Assembly (NCBI RefSeq): GCF_011392125.1
Contig: NZ_JAAJBU010000002.1
Location: forward strand, 124,001 to 188,000
DNA: 64,000 nt
Direction: 5' to 3'
From: Flavobacterium lotistagni
Lineage (GTDB): Bacteria; Bacteroidota; Bacteroidia; Flavobacteriales; Flavobacteriaceae
The notes below the pieces were generated by a model, which did no database searches, was not told where the DNA came from, and saw only the letters and a program-made list of their open reading frames with translations. The translations under genes were made by a program, and so were the position numbers. Shown one piece after another: positions 4,003-61,044 of the stretch. How positions within the stretch are numbered: position 1 is the first letter of the stretch; each line of letters starts with the position of its first letter.

Positions 4003-4137
4003 AAAATATCTTTTTTTTTTGCGGCCCAAAATGCATTAACTGACTTGATTCATCTGATAAGTGATGCTTTTGAGAAAGTATTTGCTTTCGGGCTTTAGAC
4101 TTTATTGCATTTGGAAAATTACAACATATACTTCGGC

Positions 4138-4216
4138 TCTAGCCCGGATGGCAGCGGCTATCCTTTTGTGCTGGGGTTCAGCGCAAAAGATAATAGCGTA
4201 CAGCCGGATCAGCTTC
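4138..4216 (+). repeat. Flavobacterial structured intergenic element, copy B
   Basis: Close twin of copy A: same ends, same GGGTT loop, and an 11-bp inner stem with one U-G wobble where copy A has C-G. It lies between the two FN3/T9SS paralogues, beyond the terminator of the 967-residue one. It was probably duplicated together with the gene. Confidence 0.85.
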
Positions 4217-18968: not shown

Positions 18969-19073
18969 CCCTAGCCCGGGTAGCAGCGGCATCCTTTTGC
19001 GGCATCGTTAGTGCTGGTTTTAAGATAAATTCTTTTGCCGCGAAAGATACAGCGGATAACCGGATGAGCTTCT
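18969..19073 (+). repeat. Flavobacterial structured intergenic element, copy C
   Basis: CCCTAGCCCGGGT on the left and CCGGATGAGCTTCT on the right, with an enlarged middle. CTTTTGCGGC pairs with GCCGCGAAAG across a longer AT-rich loop, including one G-U pair. It lies between the FadL-like gene and rimO. Confidence 0.8.
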
Positions 19074-24286: not shown

Positions 24287-24288
24287 TA

Positions 24289-24353
24289 CTAAGAAACTCA
24301 AGAACCAAGGAACTCAGGCACTAAGGCACTAAGAAACTCAGGCACTAAAAAAA
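24289..24353 (+). repeat. Word-like repeats (GGCACTAAG / GAACTCAG type) before the kinase ATG
   Basis: Irregular tandem copies of AAGAAACTC, GGCACTAAG and GGAACTCAG that end in an A run merging with the ATG. The same words occur near elements G and H, upstream of cinA and after the methyltransferase gene. Confidence 0.75.
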
Positions 24354-40121: not shown

Positions 40122-40205
40122 GCCCTAGCCCTGATGGAAGTGAAAATCCTTTTGTTCTGGGGTTCAGAACAAAAGATTGAAACGTACAGCAGGTTCCCGG
40201 CTCCT
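40122..40205 (+). repeat. Flavobacterial structured intergenic element, copy E
   Basis: GCCCTAGCCCTGATGG on the left and GCAGGTTCCCGGCTCCT on the right. The inner 11-bp stem is CTTTTGTTCTG with CAGAACAAAAG around the same GGGTT loop as copies A and B. Two base pairs differ from copy A by compensatory changes. Confidence 0.88.
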
Positions 40206-42030: not shown

Positions 42031-43542
42031 ATGAAAACAAAATTACTTTTATTAGTTACGGTTTGCATGATGGCGTTCGGTGTGAATGCACAGGTAAATT
42101 CTGTAGCTTTGGTAGGAACAGCCGTTGGTGGTTGGCCTGGAGAGCCTGGAAACCCTGGCCCGACTGACATTAACCAATTGACCCAAGTGGATGCCGATAA
42201 CTGGATTATCGAAAACATTACTATCGCTGCTGGTCCTTGTAAATTGAGAGCCAACAACTGCTGGTGTGGTGCAGGATTCGAGTGGGCTGGGGCTTTCCCA
42301 ACTGCAACAGGTACTAGCTCTGGCGACATTATCGTTCCTATTGCTGGTGTTTACACTGTTACTTTGAATGCTACAACAGGTGTATACAACTTCGAATCAG
42401 GATCGCCACTTCCGGTTGTAAAATTAATTGGTTCATCTGTAACAGAGGCTGGTGGAATTGTTTTAGCTCCTTTTGCTACAGATACTTTCCGTGCTACCAA
42501 CGTTACTTTGGTTGATGGTACTGGTCAATTTGATATTGATGGTTCTGTGTTTGGAGAAACTTCTTTTCCAACGGGTACTTTGCAAGGAAATGCTGACAAC
42601 ATTCCAGTGGTAGCTGGCGTATATTCAACTGTTACTTTGAACATTTCAACAGGTGACTATTCATTTGAATTGGCTCCACTAATTCCACCTGTAAGTATTG
42701 TAGGTGATGCTGTGGGCGGATGGCCTGGAAGCACTGGAAATCCTGGTCCAGAAGACACTAATCAATTAACCTCGACCGATGGTGAAAATTACAAAATTGA
42801 AAAATTGGCTTGTGTCGTAGGACCTGCTAAATTCCGTCAAGATAATGCATGGACAATCAACTGGGGTGATACAGCTTTCCCAACTGGAACAGGTACTCAA
42901 GGTGGTCCAGATATTCCAGTAGCTGCTGCTGGTACTTATGATATTACTTTTGTTAGATCAACTGGTGCATACAATTTCTTAATCCCAACTATCGCTATTG
43001 TAGGTGATGCAGTAGGCGGATGGCCAGGAAGCACTGGAAACCCGGGTCCAGAAGATGTACACCAAATGGCTACAACTGATGGTCTTACTTACACTATCAG
43101 CAATTTGAACGTAGTTGTCGGACCTGCAAAATTCCGTCAAGGAAATGCTTGGGATATCAACTGGGGTAGCGTAGATTTCCCATCAGGCACAGCTACTCAA
43201 AACGGTGCTGATATTTCAGTAACTACTGCTGGTACTTATGATGTAACTTTAAACAGAGTAACTGGTGAATACAACTTCACTCCTTCTTTGGCTACCACTA
43301 CTTTCAACTCCAATAACTTTAGAGTATCTCCTAACCCAACCAATAACGTTTGGAACTTCGTATCGGCTAAACAAGCTATCGAGTCTATCCAAATCGTGGA
43401 TATGTTAGGAAAAACAGTAATGACTATCAATCCGAAAGATATGAACGTTACTGTAGATGCTACAAGCTTAAACGCTGGAATGTATTTCGCAAAAATTTCA
43501 ACGGCTAATGCTACTGAAACAGCGAAGTTGATTAAGAACTAA
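42031..43542 (+). CDS. SusE/SusF-like glycan-binding protein with T9SS type A sorting domain
   Basis: 503 residues. A signal peptide ends at VNAQ (about 21). Four repeats of about 95 residues follow; repeats 1, 3 and 4 carry GGWPG..GNPGP.D..QL, a K(L/F)R..N.W core and a TGVYNF/TGAYNF end, resembling the starch-binding modules of SusE/SusF. Repeat 2 is divergent. The end (RVSPNPTNNVWNF... KLIKN) is a T9SS sorting domain. SusE/F proteins are normally lipoproteins beside SusC/D; here there is neither a lipobox nor a SusCD pair. Codons look biased to those of strongly expressed genes. Binding partner unknown. Confidence 0.85.
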   Translation: MKTKLLLLVTVCMMAFGVNAQVNSVALVGTAVGGWPGEPGNPGPTDINQLTQVDADNWIIENITIAAGPCKLRANNCWCGAGFEWAGAFPTATGTSSGDIIVPIAGVYTVTLNATTGVYNFESGSPLPVVKLIGSSVTEAGGIVLAPFATDTFRATNVTLVDGTGQFDIDGSVFGETSFPTGTLQGNADNIPVVAGVYSTVTLNISTGDYSFELAPLIPPVSIVGDAVGGWPGSTGNPGPEDTNQLTSTDGENYKIEKLACVVGPAKFRQDNAWTINWGDTAFPTGTGTQGGPDIPVAAAGTYDITFVRSTGAYNFLIPTIAIVGDAVGGWPGSTGNPGPEDVHQMATTDGLTYTISNLNVVVGPAKFRQGNAWDINWGSVDFPSGTATQNGADISVTTAGTYDVTLNRVTGEYNFTPSLATTTFNSNNFRVSPNPTNNVWNFVSAKQAIESIQIVDMLGKTVMTINPKDMNVTVDATSLNAGMYFAKISTANATETAKLIKN

Positions 43543-46405: not shown

Positions 46406-47377
46406 TTACTTGAAAAACGAATCGACAAATTCGTATTTGTTGAATACTTGCAAATCTTCAATGCCTTCGCCAACACCGATGTATTTCACCGGAATCTGGA
46501 ATTGGTCTGAAATGCCAATCACAACGCCACCTTTGGCCGTACCATCGAGTTTGGTAACTGCTAGTGACGTAACCTCTGTAGCAGCTGTAAATTGTTTGGC
46601 TTGCTCAAAAGCGTTTTGACCGGTCGAACCGTCGAGTACTAAAAGTACATCGTTTGGTGTATTCTCCACCACTTTTTGCATGACGCGCTTGACTTTGGTG
46701 AGTTCGTTCATGAGGTTGGTTTTGTTGTGCAAGCGGCCTGCGGTATCAATGATAACCACATCGGCGTTTTGGGCTACGGCACTTTGCAAAGTATCGAAAG
46801 CAACTGAAGCCGGATCACTGCCCATTTGTTGTTTGACCAGCGGCACTCCTACTCTATCGGCCCAAACTTGCAACTGGTCAATGGCGGCGGCTCGGAACGT
46901 ATCTGCGGCTCCGAGTACTACTTTGTAACCTTGCTTTTTGAACTGGTGCGCGAGTTTCCCGATTGTGGTGGTTTTTCCAACACCGTTCACGCCGACAATC
47001 ATCAGCACGTAAGGCTTCACGTTGACCGGAATGACAAATTCTGTAGCTTCTCCGGAATTGGTTTCGGAAAGCAAACCGGAAATTTCATCGCGCAGGATTT
47101 GATTGAGCTCGTCGGTGCCGAGGTATTTGTCTTCGGCGACACGCTTCTCGATGCGCTCGATAATTTTGAGTGTTGTATTGACCCCGACATCTGAGGAAAC
47201 CAAAATTTCTTCGAGGTTGTCTAAGACTTCATCATCAACCTTAGATTTTCCGGCGATGGCTTTGGTGAGCTTCGAGAAAAAACTGGTTTTGGATTTTTCG
47301 AGTCCTTTGTCGAGGGTTTCTTTTTGCTCTTCGGTGATTTTCTTTTCGGAAGAGAATATTCTTTTGAAAAAACTCAT
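46406..47377 (-). CDS. ftsY: Signal recognition particle receptor FtsY
   Basis: 323 residues, a short form without the long acidic A domain. The N domain (residues 1-105) is helical. The G domain has GVNGVGKTTTIGKLA, VLGAADTFRAAAIDQL, DTAGRLHNK, TKLDGTAKGG and GVGEGIEDL. It receives SRP-bound ribosomes at the membrane. The start at MSFFKRIFSSEKK was chosen over the frame start at 47416. In many Bacteroidetes it directly follows rpmB-rpmG-DUF4295; here a terminator and element copy F separate it from them. Confidence 0.95.
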   Translation of the reverse strand: MSFFKRIFSSEKKITEEQKETLDKGLEKSKTSFFSKLTKAIAGKSKVDDEVLDNLEEILVSSDVGVNTTLKIIERIEKRVAEDKYLGTDELNQILRDEISGLLSETNSGEATEFVIPVNVKPYVLMIVGVNGVGKTTTIGKLAHQFKKQGYKVVLGAADTFRAAAIDQLQVWADRVGVPLVKQQMGSDPASVAFDTLQSAVAQNADVVIIDTAGRLHNKTNLMNELTKVKRVMQKVVENTPNDVLLVLDGSTGQNAFEQAKQFTAATEVTSLAVTKLDGTAKGGVVIGISDQFQIPVKYIGVGEGIEDLQVFNKYEFVDSFFK

Positions 47378-47397
47378 GGTTTGTTGTTTGATGGTGA

Positions 47398-47426
47398 TGG
47401 CTCGCAAAGACGCCAAGGCGCAAAGT
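47398..47426 (+). repeat. Word repeat (TCGCAAAGACGCCAAGGCGC) in the ftsY leader
   Basis: GCTCGCAAAGACGCCAAGGCGCAAAG is near-periodic in GCAAAG/GCCAAGG. Only one copy occurs in this window; I recall similar words from other Bacteroidetes genomes, which I cannot verify here. Confidence 0.5.
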
Positions 47427-47548: not shown

Positions 47549-47628
47549 CCCCTAGCCCGGATGGGAACGGCATCCTTTTGCGGCGCGCAGCAGAGCAAAA
47601 GATACAGTGGACAGCCGGATCAGCTTCT
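47549..47628 (+). repeat. Flavobacterial structured intergenic element, copy F
   Basis: CCCCTAGCCCGGATGG on the left and AGCCGGATCAGCTTC on the right. The inner stem is CTTTTGC with GCAAAAG around a GC-rich loop. It sits between ftsY and the DUF4295 gene. Confidence 0.82.
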
Positions 47629-48471: not shown

Positions 48472-49728
48472 TCAGTTTGCAAAGTCTTCAAGGATTTCTT
48501 TCTGTAAGAGTTCCATGCTTTTGTTGACGGTGCGGTCGATGACTTTCTCGCGCGGTTGACCGAAATTGAACTTGTGCGAAACCACTTCGCTCGGCGATGC
48601 TATGGCAATAAACACCACGCCTACTTCCTCATTGGTTTCATCTGTAGTTGGGCCAGCGTTTCCGGTGACAGCTATCGAATAATCAGTTTTGAGGATTTTT
48701 CGAACTTGCGTAGCCATTTCTTCGGCTACTTCTGCGCTGACAACTGTATATTTTTCGATGGTTTGCTCAGAAACGCCGAGCACATCTACTTTCACTTCTT
48801 TGGCATAACTCACCACGCTGCCTTTGAAATATTGCGACGAACCCGGAATGGAAGTTAGAATTTGCGCAATTTTTCCGCCGGTGCAGCTTTCGGCTGTGGA
48901 AACTGTTTTACCGTATTGCGTGAGCAGTTTGCCTAAAACGACTTCTAAAGTTTCGCCTTCGTCAAAGCCAACAATAATGTCTCCGATAATTTTAGTTAAG
49001 GAAGTGACTTGATCTGCTACGGCCCTTTCTAAAAGCTCTTTGTCAGTGCCACGCGCGGTCAGTCTTAAACGAACACGACCGGGATTGGGCAAGTAAGCGA
49101 GCTTTACAAACTCCGGTAAATTGTTTTCCCAAGCTTCGATGCGCTCGGCAATCATGCTTTCGCCTTGTCCGTATGTCAGAATGGTTTTGTGAAGAATGTA
49201 CGGCCGTTTGAATTCCTTGACAATTTTAGGAATAATTTCATTGGTGACAATCGCTTTCATCTCGAACGGAACACCCGGAAGTGAAATAAAAACGGTGTTT
49301 TCTTTCTGAATCCACATGCCCGGAGCAGTGCCGTGGGCGTTGTGCAACACCGTACATTTTGAAGGAACCAAAGCTTGGTCTTTATTGACTTGCGAAAGCC
49401 TAATGGTAGAAATTTTCTCGAACAGCTTCACGATGTGGTCTTCAACAGCTTGGTTGCGAACCAATGAATCCTCGAAATACTCGCAAAAAGTGTGTTTGGT
49501 GATATCGTCTTTGGTCGGGCCGAGGCCGCCGGTGATGATTACAAAATCAGTTTGGTTCTGCAATCGTGAAAAAGTGTCTAAAATGTGGTTGCGGTCGTCG
49601 GAAATGGAAATCATTTCGTGCACCGCTACGCCCACTTTGTCGAGCGCTTTGGCTATGAAACCGGAATTGGTATCGATAATCTGGCCTATGAGAATTTCGT
49701 CGCCGATGGTGACTATGGTTGCTTTCAT
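48472..49728 (-). CDS. cinA: CinA-family protein (nicotinamide-nucleotide amidohydrolase type)
   Basis: 418 residues, the two-domain form. The N-terminal MoCF-like domain has [16 protein letters not shown] and [12 protein letters not shown] (about 63-75). The C-terminal CinA domain (about 260-415) has [40 protein letters not shown] and AVTGNAGP. Family knowledge: the C-terminal domain deamidates NMN in pyridine-nucleotide recycling. A tandem octamer lies 6-72 bp upstream of the ATG, which is unusual for a housekeeping gene. Confidence 0.95.
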
Positions 49729-49733
49729 ATTGG

Positions 49734-49800
49734 GTGCCTTAGTGCCTTAGTGCCTTAGTGCCTTAGTGCCTTAGTGCCTTAGTGCCTTAGTGCCTTAGTG
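49734..49800 (-). repeat. Tandem octamer repeat (GGCACTAA)n in the cinA leader
   Basis: On the plus strand GTGCCTTA repeats about 8.4 times without a mismatch, ending 6 bp before the cinA ATG. Eight bases is not a multiple of three, but the repeat lies outside the coding frame. Perfect identity suggests recent expansion by slippage. Confidence 0.95.
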
Positions 49801-49890
49801 CAAAATTATTAAGTTAATCGATGTACAATGAATGAATCGATTATTTTTTAGAAAGTACTAACTATATCGGGAAATGCTTGATTATCTGTT

Positions 49891-49995
49891 GCCCTAGCCC
49901 TGATAGCAGTGGAAATCTTTTTTGAGGATTGGCCGCAGCAACAGCGAAGGCAAATTTTCAAAAAAATTGCAACGAATAGCAGGTTCCCGGCTCCT
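49891..49995 (+). repeat. Flavobacterial structured intergenic element, copy G
   Basis: GCCCTAGCCCTGAT on the left and GCAGGTTCCCGGCTCCT on the right. It is a long form: TTTTTTGA pairs with TCAAAAAAA across a GC-rich inner part. It is directly followed by GGCACTAAGG-type words. Confidence 0.82.
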
Positions 49996-50001
49996 AAAAA
50001 A

Positions 50002-50036
50002 ACTCAGGCACTAAGGAACTCAGCCGCTAAGGCACC
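50002..50036 (+). repeat. Word repeats (ACTCAGGCACTAAGG type) after element G
   Basis: AACTCAGGCACTAAGGAACTCAG followed by CCGCTAAGGCACC, the same word set as at 24289-24353, between element G and the Hpt stop codon. Confidence 0.7.
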
Positions 50037-50039
50037 TCC

Positions 50040-50384
50040 TTATAATTCGAAATCTTTGGTAATTTCCTTCACGGCCTTCTCAATCTGAGACGCGACGCTT
50101 TTAAAAGTTTCTTTGATTTCCTTTTTCTTGCCTTCAGCTTTGGTCCAGGCTTCGATTTGTAGGATTTCTTCGAACGCTTGGTCCATCCCGAGTAAATCCA
50201 AGGTAGGCTTGATTTTGTGGGCGTAGCTGTAAGCTAATTTGTGGTCTTTGGTCTTGATACCGAGTTTGATTTGTTCTAAATCCAGCGGAACTTCGGTAAC
50301 GAATAAAGTGATGATCTGGTTCACGAATTCCGGGTCGTTGTCTGAAAGCGCGTAGACTTTCGCTAGGTTGTAATTTAGGGCCAT
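50040..50384 (-). CDS. Stand-alone Hpt (histidine phosphotransfer) protein
   Basis: 114 residues, all-helical. The phosphotransfer motif is YAHKIKPTLDLLG with His56. Hpt proteins pass phosphate from the receiver of a hybrid kinase to a final regulator. No kinase is adjacent; the hybrid kinase at 21337-23439 is the only hybrid seen here and a possible but unproven partner. It begins 2 bp after the stop of the FAH-family gene, so the two share a message. Confidence 0.9.
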   Translation of the reverse strand: MALNYNLAKVYALSDNDPEFVNQIITLFVTEVPLDLEQIKLGIKTKDHKLAYSYAHKIKPTLDLLGMDQAFEEILQIEAWTKAEGKKKEIKETFKSVASQIEKAVKEITKDFEL

Positions 50385-51094: not shown

Positions 51095-51124
51095 AAGTGC
51101 CTGAGTAGCTGAGTGCCTGAGTTA
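51095..51124 (-). repeat. Word repeats (GTGCCTGAGT type) beside element H
   Basis: GTGCCTGAGTAGCTGAGTGCCTGAG on the plus strand is the reverse complement of the CTCAGGCAC words seen elsewhere. A further copy lies at 51219-51245, running into the stop codon of the exonuclease gene. Confidence 0.65.
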
Positions 51125-51244
51125 TTTTAGTCCCGATTTCAACTACTGTTTCCTAAAGGTATTTCTGTTGATATTCAAATTAGATTTTACTACTAAAAGT
51201 ACAATTTTCCGAATCCAAACTCAGGCACTCAGCTTCTAAGGCAC

Positions 51245-52021
51245 TTACAACAACTTATTATTAAGTTTCCTAAGCTTAATCGCCGTCAAAACCTTCTTAG
51301 TATACAACGGAAAATCCGCATTCTGGATCCAGCCGAAATAACCCGGTTCTTCTTCTAGAATTTTCTCTACCAATGCGCCTTTGTGTTTGCCGAAAGTAAA
51401 TACTTCGTTGCCGTCTTTGTCGTAAGCGATGAATCCGGCGAAATCAGCAGCCTTTTTACGGGTCGTGAATTCCGACAAAGATTTCATGTCGTTTTCCAGT
51501 TCCGGATAGCGTTCCAGTTGTGCTTTAAGGATTTCGTAGGTCGCCATCGTATCTGCCGCAGCAGAATGCGCATTGTCTAAGCTTTTTCCGCAATAGAACT
51601 TCAGCGCGGCGCTCAAAGTGCGTTCTTCCATCTTGTGGAAAATCGTCTGCACATCAACCGAAACGCGGCTTTTCATGTCAAAATCTACTCCGGCGCGAAG
51701 CAGTTCTTCCGCCAGCAATGGAATATCAAAACGATCGGAATTAAAACCCGCCAAATCGCTGTCCTTAATCATGTGGTGAATCTGATGCGCGAGTTCTTTA
51801 AAAGTCGGTTCGTTGGCCACCTTTTCGTTTGTAATACCATGCACCGCGACCACTTGCGGCGGAATCGGCATTTCGGGGTTCACCAGCCAAGTCTTACTTT
51901 CTTTGTTGCCGTTGGGAAACACCTTAAAAATTGAGATTTCGACGATGCGGTCTTTACTTATGTCGATACCTGTTGTTTCAAGGTCGAAGAAGCAAATGGG
52001 TTTGTTCAGCTTGAGTTCCAT
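51245..52021 (-). CDS. DnaQ-like 3'-5' exonuclease
   Basis: 258 residues. DEDDh exonuclease: CFFDLETTGID (Asp13, Glu15), AVHGITNEKV, GFNSDRFDIPLLAEELL and HSAAADTMATYEIL. The C-terminal 70 residues (VFTFGKHKGALVEKILEEEPGYFGWIQNADFP) are the extension of the Bacteroidetes exonuclease family, also seen in some epsilon-subunit-like proteins. It probably trims DNA or RNA 3' ends in proofreading or repair; the partner is unknown. Its own promoter box lies 18 bp upstream. Confidence 0.92.
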   Translation of the reverse strand: MELKLNKPICFFDLETTGIDISKDRIVEISIFKVFPNGNKESKTWLVNPEMPIPPQVVAVHGITNEKVANEPTFKELAHQIHHMIKDSDLAGFNSDRFDIPLLAEELLRAGVDFDMKSRVSVDVQTIFHKMEERTLSAALKFYCGKSLDNAHSAAADTMATYEILKAQLERYPELENDMKSLSEFTTRKKAADFAGFIAYDKDGNEVFTFGKHKGALVEKILEEEPGYFGWIQNADFPLYTKKVLTAIKLRKLNNKLL

Positions 52022-52048: not shown

Positions 52049-52085
52049 TCAATTAATAATGAATAATTAATAGTTAATAATTGGG
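52049..52085 (-). repeat. AT-rich word repeat, copy 1 (ATTATTAACTATTAATTATTC type)
   Basis: On the minus strand it reads CCCAATTATTAACTATTAA and continues to ATTATTAATTGAAT. A nearly identical sequence lies on the plus strand at 61006-61044, so the two are inverted copies 9 kb apart. Confidence 0.75.
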
Positions 52086-55640: not shown

Positions 55641-55713
55641 GCCTTAGCCCTGATGGAAGTGGAAAGCCCGCAGCTTGCGAGGACTTGAAACGAACAGCAG
55701 GTTCCCGGCTCCT
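55641..55713 (+). repeat. Flavobacterial structured intergenic element, copy J
   Basis: GCCTTAGCCCTGATGG on the left (one base off the usual CCTAG) and GCAGGTTCCCGGCTCCT on the right. It has the short CGCAGCTTGCG inner hairpin shared with D and K. It lies 68 bp before the ABC-F start. Confidence 0.85.
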
Positions 55714-57731: not shown

Positions 57732-58523
57732 GTGTTACATCAAATAAAATCCTATTTCCGATTTCTTTGGCACTCCAAAAACGAGCATGGGGTGCATTCG
57801 CCATTTGTGTTTGCTTTGGTCACGAAATGTTTTTATGACAGAACACCCAAAACTGAATATTCCATCCTGAGGAATTACCGCAATGCATTGCTAGAAAACA
57901 AGAACACGATTGAAGTAACTGATTTCGGTGCCGGTTCGCGCGTTTTTAACAGCAATACACGAAGAATCGACCAAATCGCTAAAAACGCCGGCATTACCGA
58001 AAAGCGGGCAGAATTGTTGTTCCGATTGTCGCGTTATTTTGAACCGGAAAATGTGCTCGAAATCGGCACTTCATTAGGATTGTCCACTTCAGCACTTTTA
58101 CTCGGAAACCCAAAAGCGAAAATCACAACACTTGAAGGCTGTCCAGAAACCGCAAAAATCGCCCAACAACAATTCGAGAAATTCGGTTTTCAAAACATTG
58201 AACTCATCAATACGGAATTCGAAACCTACCTGTCCAATTCCGCCACCAACCAACAACCATCAACCAACAACCATCAATTAACCTACTTCGACGGCAACCA
58301 CTCCAAAGCCGCGACTTTGAAATACTTTGAACTTTTGTTGCCCACAATTACCAACGAAACCGTCTGGATTTTCGATGACATTCACTGGTCTGCCGATATG
58401 GAAGAAGCTTGGGAAACCATCAAGAACCATCCAAAAGTGACTGTGACCATCGATACGTTTCAATGGGGTTTGGTTTTCTTTAGATACGAACAGCAGAAAG
58501 AGCATTTTGTGATTCGGATATGA
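57732..58523 (+). CDS. Class I SAM-dependent methyltransferase
   Basis: 263 residues from a GTG start. NEHGVHSPFVFALVTKCFY is a conserved head of a Bacteroidetes methyltransferase family. The SAM-binding motif is VLEIGTSLGLSTSALL (about 113-128), followed by ITTLEGCPE, IELINTEFE and WIFDDIHWSADMEEAWE. The stretch ATNQQPSTNNHQLTY (about 172-186) is encoded by ACCAACAACC words matching intergenic repeats. The methyl acceptor is unknown. Confidence 0.85.
   Translation: MLHQIKSYFRFLWHSKNEHGVHSPFVFALVTKCFYDRTPKTEYSILRNYRNALLENKNTIEVTDFGAGSRVFNSNTRRIDQIAKNAGITEKRAELLFRLSRYFEPENVLEIGTSLGLSTSALLLGNPKAKITTLEGCPETAKIAQQQFEKFGFQNIELINTEFETYLSNSATNQQPSTNNHQLTYFDGNHSKAATLKYFELLLPTITNETVWIFDDIHWSADMEEAWETIKNHPKVTVTIDTFQWGLVFFRYEQQKEHFVIRI
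58242..58281 (+). repeat. ACCAACAACC word repeat inside the methyltransferase gene
   Basis: Imperfect copies of CAACCAACAACCAT within the coding frame, encoding an N/Q/P/T/S/H-rich stretch. The same words occur intergenically at 58741-58767 and in reverse at 59578-59597, and in reverse inside the E2 gene at 52872-52905. Confidence 0.75.
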
Positions 58524-58886
58524 AGTGCCTGAGTGCCTTAGTGCCTGAGTTTAAAATCGGAAAAGTGTACTTTCAGCTGTAAAATCCAACTAGAATAATG
58601 GCAGAAAGAGTTTTATATAATTCGGGTTTGAAAGTTCACCTGTATTTCAGGATTTACGGACTGCCCTAGCCCTGATGGCCGCGACAGCCCGCAGCTTGCG
58701 AGGACTATAGCGAACAGCAGGTTCCCGGCTCCTGAGAAAATCCAACAACCGTCAACCAACAACCAATATTCACAACCATTTATAAAACTCTTAAGTCGAA
58801 AAGTAACATCGATTAAAAAACGGCTACTTATTCGCGGAAATTTTCCGGTGCAATTCGTACTTTTAGAAACTCAAAATATTCTTGGC
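58524..58886. other. Intergenic region between the methyltransferase and LolD-like genes
   Basis: 363 bp. GTGCCTGAGTGCCTTAGTGCC words (58525-58552), about 100 bp unassigned, element copy K, AACCAACAACC words (58741-58767) and a leader with TACTTTTA as a weak -7 candidate. No gene seen. Confidence 0.7.
58663..58733 (+). repeat. Flavobacterial structured intergenic element, copy K
   Basis: GCCCTAGCCCTGATGG on the left and GCAGGTTCCCGGCTCCT on the right, with the CGCAGCTTGCG inner hairpin. Nearly identical to copies D and J. Confidence 0.88.
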
Positions 58887-59603: not shown

Positions 59604-59703
59604 AGGAGCCGGGAACCTGCTGTACGCTATATCTTTTTAAACCTACTAGGTTTTGTAAACCTAGTAGGTTTAAAAAGGATGCCGCTGCCATCAGGGCTAG
59701 GGC
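59604..59703 (-). repeat. Flavobacterial structured intergenic element, copy L, with a 21-bp perfect inner stem
   Basis: On the minus strand it begins CCCTAGCCCTGATGGCAGCGG and ends GCAGGTTCCCGGCTCCT. The inner hairpin (59633-59653 with 59657-59677) is perfect over 21 bp with a 3-base loop; its core CCTAGTAGG is itself palindromic. Only the flanks of the stem (CTTTTT/AAAAAG) resemble the other copies. Confidence 0.88.
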
Positions 59704-61005: not shown

Positions 61006-61044
61006 CCAATTATTAATTATTAACTATTCATTATTAATTGAATA
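61006..61044 (+). repeat. AT-rich word repeat, copy 2
   Basis: CCCCAATTATTAATTATTAA continues to CATTATTAATTGAAT and matches the inverse of 52049-52085 with few differences. It fills the leader of the cobalamin adenosyltransferase gene up to the base before the ATG. Confidence 0.75.

Follow-up and report, generated by a model that had tools for sequence, protein, structure and literature searches.

REP/BIME and MITE-like elements are dispersed intergenic inverted repeats. Satellites and short tandem repeats in the gaps between bacterial genes are already known as well (PMC6749651). The known repeat that is nearest in position to the array described here is the intergenic direct repeat TAACTGA, which is found in Beggiatoaceae, Cyanobacteria and some Bacteroidetes (PMC4679880). 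A different type of insert is the rRNA intervening sequence of Coxiella, for which an ORF of the S23 family, a 28-bp stem and excision by RNase III are reported (PMC4990558). For the Flavo-1 RNA, the published data are stated to have given no real functional clue (PMC9723704).

The window, that is, the whole 64-kb stretch of DNA that was analysed, corresponds to positions 124001-188000 on contig 2 in a Flavobacterium assembly of 3.34 Mb in 51 contigs. It contains a perfect octamer array between two codirectional genes, which we take to be hpt and cinA by recognition, in the case of cinA without a family search. This array is probably one arm of an inverted octamer pair, which brackets an insert of around 90 bp plus a Flavo-1 RNA, reaches from the hpt stop to the cinA start and is part of a pattern of the genus. 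The features are as follows:

48472-49728, minus strand: cinA-like gene of 418 aa, whose start lies 5 bp from the array (ORF)
49734-49801, plus strand: perfect octamer array (GTGCCTTA)8.5, the cinA-side arm (Tandem Repeats Finder)
49801-49828, minus strand: promoter-like TTG-N17-TAATTTTG, directed into the array and cinA (pattern only)
49892-49990, plus strand: Flavo-1 RNA element (RF01705) between both arms, 61.4 bits against a gathering score of 42, an assignment that concerns the cargo and not the array
50001-50035, minus strand: imperfect octamer array in inverted orientation, which forms the hpt-side arm and lies 4 bp from the stop codon of hpt (profile)
50040-50384, minus strand: Hpt-like gene of 114 aa, upstream of the gap and codirectional with cinA (ORF)
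51096-51123, plus strand: arm of a second inverted octamer pair (profile)
51218-51245, minus strand: the other arm of this second pair, abutting the stop codon of a gene at 51245-52021 (profile)
27-104, 4137-4214, 18969-19070, 40123-40200, 47550-47625, 49892-49990, 55642-55708 and 59609-59702: Flavo-1 elements in the window

Tandem Repeats Finder assigns the array a period of 8, 100% matches and a score of 136, which is the highest of any short-period array among the 51 rows returned for the window. The preliminary description had noticed a perfect octamer array beside cinA, and this array is real; however, its end had been placed one base early, the true end being 49801, and its distance from the ATG had been given as 6 bp, whereas 5 bp (49729-49733) lie in between. 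From cinA outward, the 311-bp hpt-cinA gap consists of the array, around 90 bp of AT-rich DNA, Flavo-1 and the inverted array. The two arms align in inverted orientation over 35 bp with a score of 25, and the RNA fold of the gap has a z of -3.71, with the arms at its base. We read the array as one arm of this inverted pair, which may lately have been homogenised by slippage. The second pair (51096/51218), the arms of which are around 95 bp apart, has an RNA fold z of -6.34; a Flavo-1 element lies beside this pair and none inside it.

Imperfect tandem arrays of related words are found in the window at 24287-24348, 50001-50035, 51096-51123, 51218-51245 and 58524-58551. The same word had been said to occur in non-tandem form at other gene starts; related words are indeed present, but they form imperfect tandem arrays, some of which lie at gene starts and others at gene ends. 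Heptamer arrays built from other units (AATTAAT, AATTATT and CCAACAA) are located at 52051-52082, 61008-61039, 58243-58277 and 58742-58766 and are perhaps further arms. Most of the eight Flavo-1 elements in the 64 kb are without adjoining octamer arms, as judged by eye. An octamer-like run of a different unit, GCAAAGAC GCCAAGGC GCAAAG at 47404-47425, lies at the 5' end of an ORF on the minus strand (46406-47416, FtsY-like by eye), and a 300-bp tandem repeat with 1.9 copies and 75% matches is present at 42696-43278.

The array is a member of a dispersed family. Seven perfect arrays were found in the genome with an exact 21-bp word; they comprise 6.5 to 10.5 copies, have the same end phase and all end in GTGC on their inner side. 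In addition, the genome contains many imperfect arrays, which are mixtures of GTGCCTTA, GTGCCTGA and relatives. A periodic unit profile, run on 864 kb (C1:1-400000 and C2:4001-468000), detected 27 arrays at a threshold of 22 compared to none in reversed sequence, and the array is therefore not a product of chance; at a threshold of 18, there were 38 arrays compared to 17. Two of the 27 arrays lie inside genes and were left out. Among the 25 outside called genes, the outer end, defined as the side of the first GTGCC, has a CDS edge no more than 10 bp away in 15 cases, nine at stops and six at starts, and the inner end in two; random placement in the same gaps gave a mean of 3.3 and at most 9 for the outer end in 20,000 trials. 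Array polarity is thus set by the gene edge and not by the direction of transcription. A Flavo-1 5' word, which has 58 sites against 10 for a scrambled word, lies within 400 bp of 20 of the 25 arrays, but of 18.6% of random intergenic points, and for Flavo-1 itself, the scoring of 150 out of 885 candidates yielded at least 149 genomic matches. A higher-order repeat that includes arms was seen at the locus L048 (contig 7, around 156250-156600), where five octamer arrays follow each other at a spacing of 79 bp.

It had been proposed that slippage of the array varies the expression of cinA among cells. Such a contingency locus, a switch acting via the length of the leader or the spacing of the promoter, would agree with perfect tandem octamers 5 bp from an ATG and with the promoter-like site that abuts the array. 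TTG-N17-TAATTTTG is found at 49828-49801 on the minus strand, abuts the far edge of the array and ends in its last base, and has a chance expectation of 0.086 in the gap. The motif TAnnTTTG is described as the -7 box that the primary sigma factor recognises in F. psychrophilum (PMC9723704). By eye, CAAAnnTA is present at the inner edge of all seven perfect arrays, with a chance expectation of 0.0083 at an intergenic C. If the promoter-like site is real, the array would be part of a transcribed leader, the length of which would change with that of the array. Changes in whole 8-bp steps have indirect support from the copy numbers of 6.5 to 10.5 with a common end phase and from an apparent ortholog with a different homogeneous unit and copy number, which was identified by eye.

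The distribution of the arrays points mostly in another direction. In favour of a switch, three of the seven perfect arrays are located upstream of starts, the downstream genes presumably being cinA, a response regulator gene and grpE according to recognition, but four lie at stop codons (two by gene calls and two by eye). Because of these four, at which a promoter would be antisense, a general promoter function of the arrays is not read. Moreover, the arrays are directed away from genes and into the gaps regardless of how these genes are transcribed, which fits poorly with a regulator of start codons. A phase switch specific to cinA is unsupported given this polarity and the stop-side copies, and a specific role in cinA expression is likewise not supported, as arrays lie at stops (nine) as well as at starts (six). 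Phase variation of cinA is conceivable, but we consider the contingency reading very improbable.

Inverted arms were also found around genes of the S23 family. Between the perfect array at C2:111818 and an inverted one at around C2:112300 lies a gene for a four-helix-bundle protein from the family of 23S rRNA intervening-sequence proteins (PF05635), and the arrays sit tight against the genes on both sides. PF05635 has four matches in the genome, none of them within the window; the other three genes also lie between short repeats (by eye), and one of these three is located between groES-like and groEL-like genes (by eye) and has a low arm score (L171, 12). In two species (L171 and L190), S23 genes are apparently wedged between two genes that we take, from recognition, to be groES and groEL.

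The sample of the genus consisted of 73 S23 loci, which are mostly best-scoring matches and include many orthologs (23 sites). Two of them, which are without full flanks, were left out of arm scoring; the inverted left-right flank score of the other 71 has a median of 21, compared to a median of 11 and a 95th percentile of 19 for mismatched partners and a median of 12 in direct orientation. The 154 control genes of this genome have a median inverted score of 10 and a 95th percentile of 15.3, and 39 of the 71 S23 loci exceed the 95th percentile of mismatched partners. Strong tandem periodicity was detected in 47 of 144 S23 flanks, with a period of 7 or 8 bp in 43 of these, in contrast to 2 of 144 shuffled flanks and 16 of 308 control gene flanks. 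Using a trained gene finder and leaving out the three of 73 loci without usable neighbours, both neighbours were codirectional at 69 of 70 loci and 20 of 21 sites, compared to 405 of 669 ordinary gene triples. Distances of the arms to these neighbours were determined for 56 of the 69 codirectional loci, namely those with an arm score of at least 14. At 52 of 56 loci, no more than 10 bp separate the left arm from the upstream stop (55% for different-site partners); the same holds for the right arm and the following start at 40 of 56 (71%, compared to 59%), so that flushness clearly exceeds the control on the left side only. Grouped by site, the median distance stays within 10 bp for the left arm at all 19 sites and for the right arm at 12 of the 19.

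Within sites represented by several species, covariation means that an arm is matched better by its partner from the same species than by those of other species. This was observed at four of six such sites (P 0.0002, 0.0004, 0.0032 and 0.0040) and was not significant at the other two S23 sites (P 0.078 and 0.68). Transposon ends conserved among copies were considered and rejected, since the units of the arms differ by site. A recurring pattern is seen in the genus, in which gap inserts, that is, an S23 gene, Flavo-1 or a short sequence, are edged by inverted repeats, often made of 7-8-bp tandem units.

The junction at C2:111818 was compared across species at 30 loci, 29 of which were usable, as one is without the upstream gene. 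Seven loci contain a long ORF of S23 size in a gap of 467-539 bp and have arm scores of 20-32. In the remaining 22, the gap is 24-211 bp long. The S23 gene therefore comes or goes at this junction. Five of these 22 gaps, at 24-59 bp, offer no room for arms, and the remaining S23-free gaps score 11-32, values that are not comparable because the two halves overlap and ordinary hairpins are counted. By eye, octamer-like arms without S23 are present at L262, L263 and L266, and some S23-free junctions hold another inverted repeat. This other repeat is of the CTCTCC...GGAGAG type at L255, L258, L265 and L271 (by eye). At this one junction, inverted repeats are thus often present in S23-free gaps too, which counts against the insert reading.

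A search with this DNA matched 344 of 398 genomes of the genus, the best listed matches lying mainly in cinA, and the sample of relatives comprised 19 cinA loci plus one array of another species. Upstream of cinA, degenerate octamer arrays built from other units are present in several relatives (by eye), with GTTGCTGA-like units in G225, G251 and G100 and GATTGTTC-like units in G362 and G317. Flavo-1 reaches the cut-off in the cinA gap at 13 of 19 loci, and inverted arms around it score 25 in this genome, 27 in G251, 22 in G225 and 19 in G100. When the four of 20 hpt-cinA gaps outside the length filter are left out, the arm score of the other 16 has a median of 11.5 compared to 8 for mismatched pairs, and three of 16 exceed the 95th percentile of the latter (21). 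Not every Flavo-1 element in these gaps is framed by arms, a point against the insert reading, and the two modules are separable.

The exact unit is rare: the 21-bp word is found with at most one mismatch in two of 101 genomes, this genome counted, and with at most three mismatches in six of 12 relatives. Perfect GTGCCTTA or GTGCCTGA arrays were seen in G214, G285 and G287. The array at G285 C14:633715, which by eye shares its stop codon with C2:111818 of our genome and resembles its ortholog, consists of 6.5 copies of GTGCCTGA, and the array at C2:111818 of 8.5 copies of GTGCCTTA. Flavobacterium sp. UBA7665 possesses arrays as in this genome, one of them at a gene start whose likely counterpart here is without an array (by eye). 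An exact match to 28 bases of the array is present in 29 stretches from several phyla among 84,980 species genomes, a search that included no control octamer. A link between S23 and the octamer word in other phyla was rejected, as an S23-like ORF was found at two of the 29 loci; in the clear case, L073, the ORF lies around 800 bp from the array, and no link is claimed.

These matches in several phyla, together with the periodicity of 7-8 bp in 16 of 308 control gene flanks of this genome, are what would be expected if gaps simply gather 7-8-bp repeats by slippage and all relations to their flanks are incidental. However, plain expansion of simple sequence would not explain that units are common to many loci and that the arrays have a polarity, nor the inverted pairing and covariation of the arms, and we regard it as unlikely.

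The arm of an inverted pair is preferred as the reading of the array; the inserts may be mobile, and the arms may be renewed as DNA, through slippage inside each arm and the copying of one arm onto the other. The two arms would thereby stay alike while the unit drifts between species; a unit that is uniform inside each arm, similar in both arms and variable among species is expected from slippage and inverted-arm copying. At hpt-cinA, one arm would lately have been made perfect through slippage. In an hpt-cinA transcript, a long stem could form from the arms and bring the stop of hpt close to the start of cinA; it is through this leader that cinA would be affected, if at all. In its broader form, the proposal states that operons carry intergenic inserts with S23 or Flavo-1 cargo, the ends of which are self-renewing inverted 7-8-bp arrays at stop and start that are copied mutually; these inserts would be a counterpart of the rRNA intervening sequences, and their folding would let the operon tolerate the insert. 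We put this forward tentatively, as possible rather than probable. If it is true, the unit drifts by species and site and yet matches within one insert.

Alternatively, the arms might act at the RNA level as an operon bridge or in excision, with an mRNA stem that either serves as a substrate of RNase III or places stop and start next to each other, as in 23S rRNA intervening sequences. An S23 gene and inverted arms inside codirectional runs resemble the Coxiella element, and the folds of hpt-cinA (z -3.71, arms at the base) and 51096/51218 (z -6.34) are in line with this. On the other hand, one octamer pair (C2:393422-393604) is flanked by convergent genes, and G-U mismatches did not exceed A-C mismatches in the transcribed orientation (83 compared to 122; 58 of the 73 S23 elements entered the count). 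With this negative G-U test, maintenance of the arms at the RNA level was rejected and DNA-level renewal is therefore preferred, with a possible role of the RNA; as an explanation of the arms, the RNA-level reading appears improbable.

Taken together, the original observation of the array was right, its interpretation as a switch is weak, and the arm of a recurrent bracketed insert is the best reading. To our knowledge, neither the Flavo-1 RNA nor free-standing S23 genes have an assigned function, and we found no description of octamer arms around Flavo-1 or S23 genes in the literature covered, a search that left most subscription journals outside. Flavo-1 (at least 149 matches in this genome) and free-standing S23 genes (four matches in this genome) are abundant in Flavobacterium; the presence of both cargoes in a similar stop/start bracket, with arms that covary although their sequence drifts, provides a handle on how inserts enter operons and persist there. 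The locus also serves as a warning that a perfect repeat before a start codon should not be equated with a phase switch until its inverted partner and its other copies have been checked.

Among the known systems, the TAACTGA repeats (PMC4679880) likewise consist of short tandem units between genes, often by start codons, which hold stop codons and occur sporadically among phyla. However, their unit has 7 bp and in Maribeggiatoa mostly one orientation toward starts, whereas the unit here is GTGCCTTA with a period of 8, and the arrays follow the gene edge, lie on the stop side as well as the start side and have inverted partners, so that the array is not of the TAACTGA type. The dispersed intergenic inverted repeats are a feature shared with REP/BIME and MITE-like elements, but the sequence of the arms differs among sites. 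In MITEs, the inverted repeats would be conserved among copies; at S23 loci, true pairs have a median score of 21 and mismatched pairs of 11. A REP/RAYT system was rejected, since a search of the 51-contig assembly for the Y1 transposase (PF01797) gave no match at an E of 0.001, while five of 14 control genomes matched. The element between the hpt-cinA arms is a member of the Flavo-1 RNA family (RF01705), but the arms are a separate module, as Flavo-1 occurs without arms and arms occur without Flavo-1. With the 23S rRNA intervening sequences (PMC4990558), the inserts share an S23-family gene in terminal inverted repeats within a transcription unit, and the hpt-cinA arms are terminal inverted repeats capable of forming a stem (35 bp, score 25, z -3.71). 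In contrast to these, the Flavobacterium inserts lie between protein genes and not in rRNA, as is the case for hpt-cinA, and their arms are often built from tandem units of 7-8 bp, which vary from site to site. No S23 gene is present in the hpt-cinA insert, but sister inserts elsewhere carry one. It is the bracketed architecture, rather than the array alone, that is new.
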